Assembly: GCA_016210985.1 (NCBI GenBank)
Contig: JACQTD010000007.1
Coordinates: 1 to 35,469 of the forward strand
DNA: 35,469 nt
From: Acidobacteriota bacterium
Lineage (GTDB): Bacteria > Acidobacteriota > Blastocatellia > HR10 > JACQTD01
Reading direction: 5' to 3'
A model generated the notes under the pieces. It did no database searches and was not told where the DNA came from. It worked only from the letters and a program-made list of their open reading frames with translations. Shown piece after piece: positions 10,900-28,745 of this stretch. The position numbers and the translations under genes are program-made. Position 1 is the stretch's first letter. Each line of letters starts with the position of its first letter.

Positions 10900-11162
10900 A
10901 AGGGTGGTTCGGGCGATCGAGATTGTCGAGCGGGCCCTCGATCTCTGGACGCCGCCGATCTATCTGTTTCACGAGATCGTCCACGAGCGCTATGCACCAC
11001 GGCGATGACATCGATCCGGTCCTCGACCACGTGATAGATGATCCGATACGGACCCTCGATCAGCTCGCGCGCATAAATCTCTTACATCAATTGTTCCCAG
11101 GACGTGAGCCTTGGGATGTTGTCGATCAGGCGCTTAGCTTCTTCCTGCAGGTCTCGATCCAT
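10900..11162 (-). pseudogene. Collapsed toxin-antitoxin relic: antitoxin N-terminus joined to a RelE/ParE toxin C-terminus
   Basis: SD AAGGAGG then ATG (11160-11162): MDRDLQEEAKRLIDNIPRLTSWEQLM*EIYARE, then LIEGPYRIIYHVVEDRIDVIAVVHSAR, then after a 1-nt shift DDLVKQIDRRRPE. TAA at 11082-11084. Confidence 0.6.
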
Positions 11163-11202
11163 GGGCAAATTCCACCTCCTTATACCCCCCGCCGCGCAAC
11201 AT

Positions 11203-11257
11203 GCCGAACGTACTGCGTTCACTTGCCGGCCCGGTCAAGTGCAACGCTTTGTTGCCG
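11203..11257 (-). other. Degenerate attC-like recombination site downstream of the DHFR-family gene
   Basis: GCGTTCACTTG (11215-11225) pairs with CAAGTG-C-AACGC (11236-11247) with a single extrahelical base, flanked by GCCGAAC and GTTGCCG. Same layout as the site at 11929-11992, but the end boxes are imperfect. Confidence 0.5.
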
Positions 11258-11295
11258 GCACCCCGGAACGAAGATGGACGGTCTCACCCTCATCG

Positions 11296-11853
11296 TCAGC
11301 TCTTCGCTCGGTACCGAACGTGAACCATACCGTTGTCGAACCTGCGTTCATCGAGAAGTTCGAGCTTCACGGGGACCTTGCCTGGCAGATAGGGATTGCC
11401 GCTGCCCGCGATGATCGGCGCGATGAGTAGGTGATATTCGTCGACAAGGCCAGCTCGAATGGCATGCGCTGCGAGCGCCGGACCGCCCACCGCAACCTCG
11501 CGGGTCGCTCCTGCCTTGAGTTCCCGTACAACGTCCGCCTCGAATTTCCGCTCGAGCCGCGTCTTGGCCGTAGAGACCGTCTGCAGCGTCGTCGAGTACA
11601 CGATCTTTTCAGCCGCCTGCCAGATCGGCGCGAACTCCAGCACGGCTGCTGTCCGATGGGGAAACACATCTGGCGTCTCCCAAACGGCCATCGTCTCGTA
11701 CATCTTGCGCCCAAAGAGATAGGTGCCGATCTGCCTCTCGCGGCTGTTAATGAAGGCGTGGACTTCCTCATCTAGCTCCGCCCGATCGAAGTTGCCGGTT
11801 TCATCCGCAACATAACCATCGAGCGACGTAAACGCGGCGTAGATCAGTTTGGC
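11296..11853 (-). CDS. Dihydrofolate reductase family protein (RibD C-terminal-like)
   Basis: MAKLIYAAFTSLDGYVADETGNFDRAELDEEVHAFIN..., LFGRKMYETMAVWE, REVAVGGPALAAHAIRAGLVDEYHLLIAPIIAGSG. The start is taken at MAKL inside the longer ORF 11296-11877. Confidence 0.9.
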   Translation of the reverse strand, partial: AKLIYAAFTSLDGYVADETGNFDRAELDEEVHAFINSRERQIGTYLFGRKMYETMAVWETPDVFPHRTAAVLEFAPIWQAAEKIVYSTTLQTVSTAKTRLERKFEADVVRELKAGATREVAVGGPALAAHAIRAGLVDEYHLLIAPIIAGSGNPYLPGKVPVKLELLDERRFDNGMVHVRYRAKS

Positions 11854-11928
11854 CATCGTGCACACTCCATCTCTCAATCAGCCCTTGAAAAGCCGCATAT
11901 GAGTCCGGCTAACGCTCCCGCTCAGCCG

Positions 11929-11992
11929 GCCTAACGCTCCGGTTCAGCGGCGGGCCGCGTAGCGGGCCGTCCGCTGCAACCGGTTGTTATGC
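11929..11992 (-). other. attC-like site of an integron gene cassette
   Basis: Minus strand: GCATAACAACCGGTTGCAGCGGACGGCCCGCTACGCGGCCCGCCGCTGAACCGGAGCGTTAGGC. R'' and R'-like ends, imperfect stem with one extra base in TTGCAGC versus GCTGAA, central hairpin. R'' extended (GGCGGCATAAC, minus) is the exact complement of GTTATGCCGCC at the kinase-cassette start (minus strand of 13605-13615). Confidence 0.75.
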
Positions 11993-12010
11993 CGCCGTGG
12001 ATGCGGGACT

Positions 12011-12559
12011 TCACGAGTGCCAGCCTTTCCGTGTCCAGTATTCGGACCACCACACACGAAGCGAGCCCCCCTGGCGCAGCACCTCGATGGCTCGTTCATC
12101 GAGTTCGATTCCTTTCTGCGACCAGTACTCGCGGAGCGTCTTGAAAACGACCGAAACGAGCCTTTCCATCGGCGCATGGTACGTCTCGAGCAGCGCTTGC
12201 TCACTCATTTCGACTGCCATCGTTTCGCGAAGGTTCGTGAGCGCTTCGTGGGCGAACTCGAAGACGATCTCCTCAGGTGCGATGCCGAGTGTGTCACTGC
12301 CAACACCGTACACTTCTACGCTCAGGCCCGCAGTGCCACGATCGTCCAGCAGCAAACGGTCGAGCGTCGTGCGAGCGAGTACAGCGACGCGGGCAGCGTC
12401 GATGGGGTTGCCGCGGCGACGCAATAACTGCTGGAGCGTCCTTGCAACCGTGAGCCATCTTGCAGCCGAACGATCGTCGACTCCAGTGGCAAGCACAGCA
12501 AGTCGTTCTTCAAGTTCCGCTATCGAAGCATCGAGCTGGGCCGCGCCCACTCGCGCCAT
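12011..12559 (-). CDS. Hypothetical helical protein, second gene of the kinase cassette
   Basis: 182 aa ORF starting 15 bp after the kinase stop and ending 18 bp before the attC-like site. Confidence 0.65.
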   Translation of the reverse strand: MARVGAAQLDASIAELEERLAVLATGVDDRSAARWLTVARTLQQLLRRRGNPIDAARVAVLARTTLDRLLLDDRGTAGLSVEVYGVGSDTLGIAPEEIVFEFAHEALTNLRETMAVEMSEQALLETYHAPMERLVSVVFKTLREYWSQKGIELDERAIEVLRQGGSLRVWWSEYWTRKGWHS

Positions 12560-12574
12560 CTCCGCGGCTGCCCA

Positions 12575-13585
12575 CTACCCGTGGGATGCTACATCCCACC
12601 CATGGGCTTGGTCGTCTTGGACGGACAGCTGCGGCGCAAGGTTCAGCTCGTGCTCCTGCTGGAGAATGTCACAGCGTGCTGACTTGAGGTCAGAGGCAGA
12701 AGGCCTGGCTGACGGATCTGGAGCTAGCGCCCTATCAACGAGATCGCGTAGGCTCGCCGGGCCGAAGTCGAGGTGCCTGGGTCCTGAGGTTGTCCATGCT
12801 TCCCACTTCCTAGCATCCCACTTCTTCGCGAGGACCTCTGTAACATCGCCCGCCGCGTGTCTTCCGGACAAGAGCTCGCAAGCAATGACACCTATGGCGA
12901 AGATGTCACTCGCTCCCGGCACCACAGTATTGCGGAACCGCTCTGGGGCGAGGTATGGGCGCCACGCGTGGTACGTCCCACCACCCTGGGTCCAGATATC
13001 GGCCCAGCCGAGATCAGCGATGCGCGCTTGCCAGTAGTGGGCCTTGCTTGGAAAGCCGTCTCCATCGGGCAGGGCGAAGCGCTGACGAAGGTCGCTGAGG
13101 AGAATGTTGTCTGGCTTCAGGTCGCCATGCCCCTGGAGGCCATGTTCGTAGAGCCACTGGAGACCGGAGCATATTTGTGCAAGGGTGGTGACGCAATCAA
13201 CTGGCGACATCGTGATCTCACCTCTGACGCACGCCGAAAGGTTGGCATCGCAGAAAGGCATGCGCACCAAGGGCAAGACTTCGAACTCACCCGCGAGATC
13301 CGTAGGAGGGGGTGCGAACTCTAGTCCAAGAGCCGGCAAGACCTGGTAGTGAGGGGGGATACTGAGCCAGAGCCTCATCTCCCGCTCAAACAGGCGCTTC
13401 AGGTCGCGGCCGCCAGGTTTCAGCTTCGCAGGGTTCAGAGTCTTGACGCAAAACCTCTGCGGAGAAACGTTGCTCTCCTTGGCTTCAAGGACAAACACGA
13501 GGCCGTACGTCCCCTCGATGTGTCTCGTGGGTTCATAGGCTGGCCAGTGCTCGCGGAGCCGAGATTCATGTGTCTCAACGATCAT
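12575..13585 (-). CDS. Serine/threonine protein kinase
   Basis: Kinase motifs: FCVKTLNP (ATP Lys), HGDLKPDNILL (HxDLKxxN), ADLGWA (DFG variant), YLAPERF. ATG at 13585 preceded by GGAGGG; the longer ORF starts at 13612. Confidence 0.88.
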   Translation of the reverse strand: MIVETHESRLREHWPAYEPTRHIEGTYGLVFVLEAKESNVSPQRFCVKTLNPAKLKPGGRDLKRLFEREMRLWLSIPPHYQVLPALGLEFAPPPTDLAGEFEVLPLVRMPFCDANLSACVRGEITMSPVDCVTTLAQICSGLQWLYEHGLQGHGDLKPDNILLSDLRQRFALPDGDGFPSKAHYWQARIADLGWADIWTQGGGTYHAWRPYLAPERFRNTVVPGASDIFAIGVIACELLSGRHAAGDVTEVLAKKWDARKWEAWTTSGPRHLDFGPASLRDLVDRALAPDPSARPSASDLKSARCDILQQEHELNLAPQLSVQDDQAHGWDVASHG

Positions 13586-13692
13586 GCGATTCTCCCTCCG
13601 CTCCGGCGGCATAACTCATATTTATCCTAACCAGCATAACACGGCGCGCATGGCAGCGTAACACGGACCTTCCCCTGCCAGTCCGAGTCCGA

Positions 13693-14015: not shown

Positions 14016-14340
14016 TTATTTCCAATAGGTGCGGTCGAGGCTGCGATATTGGATGGCTTCGGAGAAGTGGGGGGACTCGATATGCTCGGAGCCTTCGATG
14101 ATGAATCGCTGGTGCGGAGCCCGGCGCGCCTTCACCACCCGCTCCCGAACTGCTGAAGACGATTCGGCTTGGGATGGACGTGAGATCTCACGGACCCGGA
14201 CGGCGGGCACGTCGATGTGAATGTCGATCCGGTCCATCAGCGGGTCCGAGATCTTCGCGACGTACCGCTGGATCATCTGCATCGTGCAGGTGCATTCACG
14301 AGTCGGATCGCCGAAATAGCCACACGGACACCCCCGCGTT
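14016..14340 (-). pseudogene. C-terminal, internally deleted remnant of a YifB/ComM Mg-chelatase-like AAA ATPase gene
   Basis: CPCGYFGDPTRECTCTMQMIQRYVAKISDPLMDRIDIHIDVPAV...SEHIESPHFSEAIQYRSLDRTYWK. Lacks the segment normally lying between RERF and HLSEAIQYRSLDR, and the N-terminal part is replaced by the HTH unit. Confidence 0.75.
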
Positions 14341-14758
14341 GCCATTCTGCCATGCCGAGCTAAACGGCCCGAGGCCACGCTTCGACCCTTACCCTAAGTC
14401 ATTGAATACGTTAGGTGACCACATCCGCAACAGAAGGCGTGATCTGGGACTGCTTCAACGGGAGGTCGCGGCACAAATCGGCGTCGACCCGGACACCATC
14501 TGGAATTGGGAGAGCAACGCAACCACTCCTGCGTTGACCCTGATCCCGAGAGTGATCAATTTCCTGGGTTACGTCCCCTTCGTTCTGGCTGGTTCGCTGA
14601 CTGAGAAGCTTGCGCTATTTCGAAAGACCCGGGGCCTTTCAATCCGGCAACTCGCCGGGGAGTTGGGTGTCGATCCGTCGACCTTGGCTGGTTGGGAAGC
14701 CGGGAGACACAAACCAGAGAGAAAGTTCCTGGACAGGATCGAAGAGCTCCTCCGCTGA
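14339..14758 (+). CDS. Tandem helix-turn-helix (XRE-type) protein, copy 1
   Basis: TTG start MPFCHAELNG...YPKSLNTLGDHIRNRRRDLGLLQREVAAQIGVDPDTIWNWESNATTPALTLIPRVINFLGYVPF...LSIRQLAGELGVDPSTLAGWEAGRHKP. Confidence 0.85.
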   Translation: MPFCHAELNGPRPRFDPYPKSLNTLGDHIRNRRRDLGLLQREVAAQIGVDPDTIWNWESNATTPALTLIPRVINFLGYVPFVLAGSLTEKLALFRKTRGLSIRQLAGELGVDPSTLAGWEAGRHKPERKFLDRIEELLR

Positions 14759-17040: not shown

Positions 17041-17473
17041 AGAACGCTACGACCGTCAGCTTAAAGCCCTGGTCGATGCCCTTGGGCGGTCCGTCGTTGA
17101 GGCCCCTGACGAGGAGATTCTTGAAGATGCGCGGCTCGCCGGGGTGGACTTGGCTGCAAATGCCACCGAGCTGAAGGAGATGTTCGTTAGTACCGCGAAG
17201 AGTTTTCAGAAGAGAAAACTTGTTCAAGCGCAGGAGGATTATGCTAAGGCGGTTGAAAGCCTTAAGGAACGGTCGTTTCAGCTTCCACCCTCATCCGAAG
17301 AACAACGCTCTTTGCTTCAACTGCTGGTAGCGCAACAGGCGCAAAAAGGAGTCATGCTCACGGCCAAGTTCCGTGATTTCGAGAACTTGTCAGACAACGA
17401 CGTAGCGAGCCTGCTCGAAGACCTGATTGCACTTGGACTCATCCCGGAGTCAGATTCCCAGCCCGAGATATGA
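17030..17473 (+). CDS. Small helical protein between the sigma factor and ImmA/IrrE protease, candidate anti-sigma or substrate
   Basis: ATG at 17030 overlaps the sigma stop and this gene's stop overlaps the next gene. MSHKERYDRQLKALVDALGRSVVEAPDEEILEDARLAGVD.... Confidence 0.7.
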   Translation: MSHKERYDRQLKALVDALGRSVVEAPDEEILEDARLAGVDLAANATELKEMFVSTAKSFQKRKLVQAQEDYAKAVESLKERSFQLPPSSEEQRSLLQLLVAQQAQKGVMLTAKFRDFENLSDNDVASLLEDLIALGLIPESDSQPEI

Positions 17474-18291
17474 GCGCCCCCACCTTCCCGTCCGTAGACG
17501 CTCTGTTGGAGGACCTTGGAATCACCGAACCGCATGAGCTGGATCTTAGATTCATAGCTCAGCACTGCGGAGCAACGATTGTGTACAAACCACTAGAGGG
17601 CTGTGCCGCGAGGATTGCTGGCAATGAGGAGCGTGCCATCATCACAGTAGATAACACCTCCCAAATTGAGAGGCAGCGCTTTTCCGCTGGGCATGAGCTC
17701 GGGCATTGGACGTTTGATCGAGGCAAGGTGTCGTTGTTCTCCTGTGAGGACAACCTCTTCATACAAGAGTGGTCCGGAAGTAATCCAGAAACGCGGGCAA
17801 ATCGTTATGCGAGCGATCTTCTGATGCCTCACTTCATGTTCAGACCGAGAGCGGTAACTTTTAGGCAGATCAACTTCGATACGGTGAGGAAACTTGCAAA
17901 CATATTTACGACGAGCTTGACCGCGACTGCAATTCGACTCGTTGAACACGGCCCATTTCCATCTATGCTTGTATGCAACAACGTGAAGGAAATGGAATGG
18001 GTCGTGTTCGGTAGTGGCACAAGGGGTCTTTGGCCCCAAATACCAGGCCCAGACACATACGCATATGACATTCTTAAGGGAAGGAAAGAGGAAGCCTCTG
18101 GAGACATTCTTGCCACCTCATGGTTCGAGCATCCTGTGGCTGAGCGATACAGCGTTCACGAACACTCCATTCGGGCTTACAAAGGACTCGTGCTCTCCCT
18201 GCTGTGGTGGCAAAACGAGACCATGCTCTCGAATCTGGACGATTATGAAGAAGAGCGAGACGCAAGACGCTCCGATTCACGGCGTCGATAA
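17470..18291 (+). CDS. ImmA/IrrE family metallo-endopeptidase
   Basis: AGHELGHWTFDRG (HExxH), then NRYASDLLMPHFMF, typical of ImmA/IrrE. Confidence 0.9.
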   Translation: MSAPTFPSVDALLEDLGITEPHELDLRFIAQHCGATIVYKPLEGCAARIAGNEERAIITVDNTSQIERQRFSAGHELGHWTFDRGKVSLFSCEDNLFIQEWSGSNPETRANRYASDLLMPHFMFRPRAVTFRQINFDTVRKLANIFTTSLTATAIRLVEHGPFPSMLVCNNVKEMEWVVFGSGTRGLWPQIPGPDTYAYDILKGRKEEASGDILATSWFEHPVAERYSVHEHSIRAYKGLVLSLLWWQNETMLSNLDDYEEERDARRSDSRRR

Positions 18292-21211: not shown

Positions 21212-21440
21212 GATGCTTTGACAGAGCATGAGCGATGGGTCGAGTTGCACTCACCGGCCGGGTCCGGAGCTGAGACCGAATCAGCGCACCCGCAACCCTA
21301 ACGAAAATGGATATCCGCCGAAAATGCGTCACCCACATTCGTCCCGAATACTGCGTTCAGAGAGTGCGATTCTGAAATGGGCCTCGGCGAAATTCCTGCT
21401 GTGTTGGTGCTGATCGCCTCTCTGATCCCGCACCCCCGCG

Positions 21441-21866
21441 TTGCCTTTCTGCCATTTAGTGCTCAAAGGCTCGAGACCCCTCCCCGACTCCTACCCTAAG
21501 CCATTGAATACATTAGGGGATCACCTCCGCAAGAAGAGGCTCAACCTCGGACTGCTCCAAAGGGAGGTCGCGAAACAGATCGGTGTAAACCTGGATACAA
21601 TTTGGAACTGGGAAAGCAACGCAACCACCCCTTCGTTGCCTATGATGCCGGGAATAATCGGATTTCTGGGGTACTCTCCTTGTGTTGGGGCAAGTTCTCT
21701 GGCCGAAAAGCTAGCCGTCTATCGCAGAACGCGAGGTCTCTCCCGCAAGGAATTGGCCGAGCAGCTTGGGGTTGATCCCGGCACGCTGGCACGGTGGGAG
21801 GGCGGAACAGGCAAGCCGGGGAGAAAACACCTCGAGAGGATCGAAGATTGCTTTTCTGCAAGGTAG
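21441..21866 (+). CDS. Tandem helix-turn-helix (XRE-type) protein, copy 2
   Basis: TTG start MPFCHLVLKG...YPKPLNTLGDHLRKKRLNLGLLQREVAKQIGVNLDTIWNWESNATTPSLPMMPGIIGFLGYSP...LSRKELAEQLGVDPGTLARWEGG. Confidence 0.85.
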   Translation: MPFCHLVLKGSRPLPDSYPKPLNTLGDHLRKKRLNLGLLQREVAKQIGVNLDTIWNWESNATTPSLPMMPGIIGFLGYSPCVGASSLAEKLAVYRRTRGLSRKELAEQLGVDPGTLARWEGGTGKPGRKHLERIEDCFSAR

Positions 21867-28205: not shown

Positions 28206-28298
28206 ATGCATCAGACCCGAGTCGAGTTTTGATTGCGGCGGAATCTAAGGTGCCTGTTCGCTTTATGCTGATCAGATCTCTGAGTCCGCACCCCTGCG

Positions 28299-28745
28299 TT
28301 GCCATTTTTCCATGCCGTGCTGAGAGGCCTGAGACCCTTCTCCCACTCTTACCCTAAGTCGTTGAATACGTTAGGTGACCACCTCCGGAAGAAAAGGCTC
28401 GACCTCGGGCTGCTTCAAAGAGAGGTCGCAGTTCAAATCGGCGTCGACCAGGACACAATTTGGAACTGGGAGAGCAACGCAACCCACCCTGCGTTGCCCC
28501 TAATCCCGAAAGTGATCGAATTCTTGGGTTATGCCCTCTATGTTCGCGCAGCTTGTCAGACTGAGAAACTGTCCCGGTTTCGGAAGACGCGAGGTATGTC
28601 GATCAAAGAGATGGCCGGCCACTTGGGGGTTGACCCATCGACCGTGGCCGGTTGGGAGGCCGAACGGCATAGACCGGGGAGGAGATACCGGAGAAAGATC
28701 AGAGGATTCTTCTCCAATGGCGACTACAGAGAAAATAATACTTGA
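28299..28745 (+). CDS. Tandem helix-turn-helix (XRE-type) protein, copy 3
   Basis: TTG start MPFFHAVLRG...YPKSLNTLGDHLRKKRLDLGLLQREVAVQIGVDQDTIWNWESNATHPALPLIPKVIEFLGYALY...MSIKEMAGHLGVDPSTVAGWEAERHRP. Confidence 0.85.
   Translation: MPFFHAVLRGLRPFSHSYPKSLNTLGDHLRKKRLDLGLLQREVAVQIGVDQDTIWNWESNATHPALPLIPKVIEFLGYALYVRAACQTEKLSRFRKTRGMSIKEMAGHLGVDPSTVAGWEAERHRPGRRYRRKIRGFFSNGDYRENNT

Follow-up and report, generated by a model that had tools for sequence, protein, structure and literature searches.

Does the serine/threonine kinase gene that lies between integron recombination ends in this DNA travel with a dedicated partner, or is the apparent partner something else? A preliminary description of the window (the whole stretch analysed, 35,469 nucleotides) had proposed that the kinase moves together with a 182-aa partner as a single two-gene unit. 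Both open reading frames are present as given there, at 12575-13585 (or with a start at 13612) and at 12011-12559. On balance, we think it quite probable that both belong to one Ser/Thr-kinase gene, which encodes a new helical C-terminal domain and has been interrupted by a nonsense codon, and that this gene lies in a decaying cassette cluster without an integrase. The features on which this reading draws are collected in Table 1.

Table 1. Coordinates of the cassette, its gene and the adjoining cassette-like features
Feature	Position	Strand	Details
Cassette 5' end GTTATGCCGCC, R' half-site	13605..13615	(-)	Exact complement of 11986-11996
Ser/Thr kinase part	12575..13585	(-)	Pfam Pkinase 70.7 bits, cut-off 31.7; ATG 13585; alternative in-frame ATG 13612 inside R'
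In-frame TAG stop interrupting the ORF	12575..12577	(-)	TCT (Ser) in L009; codon alignment, bases checked
C-terminal helical domain	12011..12574	(-)	69% identical to the C-terminus of the L009 535-aa ORF
Probable original 3' end of the ORF	11987..12013	(-)	TGA 12013-12011, CGA in L009; next in-frame stop TAA 11989-11987 inside R''
attC recombination site, kinase cassette	11929..11992	(-)	R'' GCATAAC, R' GTTAGGC
Dihydrofolate reductase-like gene (RibD_C), likely neighbouring cassette	11296..11877	(-)	Pfam RibD_C 70.8 bits
Degenerate attC-like site after the RibD_C gene	11200..11259	(-)	L arms GCGTT-G-CACTTG / CAAGTGAACGC, one unpaired base
ParE-like toxin ORF	10985-11162	(-)	Pfam 19.3 bits, just below cut-off; in-frame TAA 11084-11082

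Cassette ends and the second copy

Read on the minus strand from 13615, the locus runs from GTTATGCCGCC through the kinase frame and the 182-aa frame to an attC site that starts with GGCGGCATAACAACCGG and ends with GAGCGTTAGGC. Minus-strand bases 11992-11929 take the canonical attC form, with a small hairpin at the centre and long complementary L arms that include an unpaired base. A covariance model built from eight attC sites, all of them from class 1 resistance-integron cassettes, scores this site at 33.3 bits (E 9e-7 for the window), against 10.9 bits on the opposite strand and 12.9 bits for the runner-up anywhere in the window, and ranks it fifth best genome-wide (E 1e-4). As single-stranded DNA the site folds at -26 kcal/mol, compared with -15.3 +/- 2.2 for shuffled sequences (z -4.8). 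It is also the sole hit in the window for an R''/L''/L'/R' scanner that recovers some known attCs and has a background of 0.3 hits per shuffled window; an Rfam search gave no match. By covariance score and by fold, then, the site that the preliminary description had called attC-like stands well above background. The 11-nt match it had reported between the extended R'' and the end upstream of the kinase is also real and not a product of chance, as the window holds just two copies of GTTATGCCGCC, at 11986-11996 (+) and 13605-13615 (-), with 0.03 expected by chance. Crossover is predicted after the first G of R', i.e. G/TTATGCCGCC, and the cassette measures 1,680 bp (13614-11935).

In uncultured phyla, the limits of cassettes mostly have to be inferred; a second copy from another phylum establishes them here at single-base resolution. 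A scan of one genome per species in 84,980 species returned a single relative, in the Chloroflexi MAG L009; the scan detects close relatives only, because it requires a short exact peptide match. Viral contigs (queried with the fusion protein, the partner and the alignment), plasmids, phages and about 760 genomes drawn mainly from the two phyla yielded no copy beyond L009. A weak match in another Chloroflexi-group genome, L021, is a sigma factor and was discarded as a relative. DNA identity between the window and L009 is 82% inside the cassette and about 25% outside it. Similarity sets in at 13615, where GTTATGCC starts with the first G of R', and breaks off within the attC, past the L'' arm, while the flanks agree at only 13 of 60 bases upstream and 16 of 60 downstream, which is the random level. 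Because similarity starts and stops at these points and the flanks are random, we conclude that a single cassette of 1,680 bp was transferred between phyla, and the claim of a single cassette of about 1.7 kb with integron recombination ends is thereby borne out. The two genomes appear to belong to different phyla, as samples of about 300 genomes from each phylum had no genome in common; since dS between the copies is only 0.44, this argues for lateral transfer of the unit together with its cassette ends, and for a fairly recent transfer between phyla.

The L009 copy has a truncated attC and only half of an upstream site, and so is stranded itself. The half attC sites in its flanks fold no better than shuffles and receive no covariance-model score. 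Directly 3' of the intact kinase cassette, at L009 2430-3067, lie two small genes that by eye resemble MNT-type nucleotidyltransferases, which are often parts of toxin-antitoxin systems; beyond them come a tRNA-like stretch and then a murA-like gene.

A reading frame divided by a stop codon

In L009, the kinase and its 'partner' form one uninterrupted ORF of 535 aa. In the window, the two ORFs share one frame, a point that the preliminary description had missed, and the gap between them consists only of the TAG and five more codons; a second stop, the TGA near the C-terminus, falls 188 codons beyond the TAG. Codon alignment with L009 keeps the frame throughout, its indels of 3 and 15 bases both being multiples of three. 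What the preliminary description took for a dedicated partner in a two-gene unit is thus, judged from this alignment, in all likelihood the kinase's own C-terminal domain, and its ORF corresponds to the portion of that domain after an internal Met that is conserved in L009.

We consider it unlikely that the cassette is a genuine two-gene unit, in which a separate 182-aa partner would be made by coupled translation as half of a two-component signalling or defence module and L009 would represent a later fusion. As a rule a cassette holds a single ORF; cassettes with two have been described, some of them toxin-antitoxin pairs (PMC8618304). Two open frames are present here, the second remains open at a dN/dS of 0.38, and its ATG, 15 bases past the TAG, is close enough for re-initiation; yet that ATG is abutted by GGAG, without a spaced Shine-Dalgarno, whereas the kinase ATG at 13585 has GGAGGGAG upstream at good spacing. 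The 19 bases from just past the TAG through the ATG (TGGGCAGCCGCGGAGATGG) are identical in L009, where they encode WAAAEM, and the shared frame and its second nonsense change are likewise at odds with a separate gene. Two independent genes between the ends were therefore not found, a result that is not absolute, as only two copies are known. Since there are only these two copies and no outgroup, we infer the direction of change (a stop gained here as opposed to one lost in L009) from the frame, the spacer and the missing Shine-Dalgarno. The window comes from a draft assembly and a local error is possible at the TAG, yet four of the six bases around it differ from L009.

Two further explanations of the split frame can be weighed against the same bases. 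Fusion of two cassettes through loss of the first attC, as in bla-GES-1/aacA4 (PMC4670013), is a known route to two-gene cassettes, and the kinase cassette resembles that example in having one attC for two coding segments. It differs in that the segments are not separated by any attC remnant and the L009 reference copy is one gene; the bases between the ORFs are conserved coding sequence in L009, and we regard such a fusion as highly improbable. Readthrough or recoding of the TAG, so that the full kinase is still made, would account for the conserved frame past the stop, but it is hardly credible given that none of the 31 Pfam kinase matches in this genome has an internal stop, that no known readthrough element could be seen by eye and that a second stop (TGA) follows downstream.

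Pairwise dN/dS against L009 is 0.24 in the kinase part and 0.38 in the C-terminal part; on these ratios, purifying selection has acted on both, in keeping with the one interrupted gene that we favor. The C-terminal value is somewhat higher, as could be expected if constraint was relaxed once the gene had been broken, although it is no proof of this. An in-frame stop likewise cuts the ParE-like gene nearby, which also speaks for the favored reading. Searches for defence systems among cassettes may be misled in this way, since a nonsense codon can make a gene in a decaying array look like a 'two-gene module'.

The kinase, its C-terminal domain and their proposed function

On sequence grounds the identity of the kinase domain is certain. 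It exceeds the Pfam Pkinase cut-off, and both copies retain VKTL, the Glu of the C-helix, HGDLKPDN, DLG and APE, i.e. the Lys, HxD, DxG and APE of a eukaryotic-like (Hanks type) Ser/Thr kinase. The nearest profile by score is that of the MADS kinase MAD6 (PADLOC, 80.9 bits), over kinase-domain residues 118-335. The NCBIfam model NF047741, however, gives 47.6 bits against an equivalog cut-off of 460, and no other MADS component was noticed beside the kinase, so that we do not assign it to MADS. The anti-phage kinase PD-T4-6 is likewise a stand-alone Ser/Thr kinase of similar kind, and matches at 64 bits over kinase positions only; this is less than the 70.7 bits of the general Pfam kinase model and therefore points to no specific kinship. 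Similarity to PD-T4-6 does not extend beyond the kinase domain, and the C-terminal domain here is unrelated to any model searched.

A structure model of the C-terminal domain, made from two sequences, is all-helical at moderate confidence (mean pLDDT 66). The domain has no match in Pfam, NCBIfam, PADLOC, plasmids or phages, and its fold has none in the PDB (best E 0.15). A full-length model was poor (pLDDT 43) and was set aside. No description of a kinase with this new C-terminal domain as cassette cargo was found in the literature searched, and we see it as a novel cargo of an established type of element.

The intact gene would encode a soluble Ser/Thr kinase of about 535 residues, comprised of an N-terminal kinase and a roughly 190-residue all-helical C-terminal domain. 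The cassette would have been moved by integrase-mediated recombination at attC into its present chromosomal position, on a 35-kb contig that lacks an integrase, and decay since then would have separated the kinase from the C-terminal domain (TAG) and trimmed the last residues (TGA). Most likely the helical domain serves as a regulator or sensor that switches the kinase, although it may also localise it, and the kinase would phosphorylate host proteins upon a trigger, e.g. stress or phage infection. The window copy can probably still be translated over its kinase part; for the C-terminal part, translation would have to re-initiate at the ATG shortly past the stop, and through such re-initiation the split proteins could still cooperate.

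Defence is one possible use of the kinase and only a guess, because the resemblance to defence kinases is generic and lies at the level of the kinase domain. We find it doubtful that the cassette carries a defence or stress switch, complete and portable and based on phosphorylation, which would have spread between phyla with a hitherto undescribed helical domain as its sensor or effector and would function either as a single protein or as two split halves. The version worth testing is the intact Chloroflexi copy and not the window copy.

The surrounding contig

An attC above the covariance-model background, a start at an R' complementary to its own R'' and movement as a unit mark the locus as an integron gene cassette. 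It does not lie in a complete integron with intI beside the array, as no integron integrase was found on the window's contig; matches occur on other contigs of the genome, the best on C94. The locus shares with integrase-less arrays (CALIN or lone attC) the complementary R boxes, an extrahelical L-arm base, a gene in attC orientation, a frame that ends at R'' and boundaries fixed by a second copy. It differs from a CALIN in that one attC passes the covariance model, versus the two that IntegronFinder 2 takes as its default (PMC9024848), and that program would therefore report the site only with the threshold lowered to one.

The sequence 3' of the kinase attC holds a half attC, the dihydrofolate reductase-like gene, a degenerate attC-like fold and a broken ParE-like gene, and the region looks like a small decaying cassette cluster. 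The RibD_C gene has relatives on many plasmids. The degenerate site folds at z -2.6, with 2 of 200 shuffles as good, and is weak because the covariance model does not find it; the ParE-like ORF that adjoins it is another broken cassette-like gene. Elsewhere in the same genome, a strong attC (53.7 bits) lies at and around 11428-11487 of contig C243 (L029), near an integron-integrase fragment, and more attC sites lie on contigs C220 and C12; the genome therefore holds, or held, at least one integron.

On the other side of the kinase cassette, a double-HTH (XRE-type) gene with its leader is present in three direct copies on the plus strand (14329-14628, 21431-21730 and 28289-28588) that are 74-79% identical and spaced about 7 kb apart, with one more relative only in the whole genome, on contig C168. 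The copies bracket blocks of unknown genes, one of them with an IrrE-like peptidase (17470-18291), which suggests an island built around repeated HTH modules. A ComM/YifB Mg-chelatase-like gene is represented at 14016-14378 (-) by its C-terminal portion only; it lacks its 5' part at the start of the first HTH module, a possible insertion point of the HTH island.
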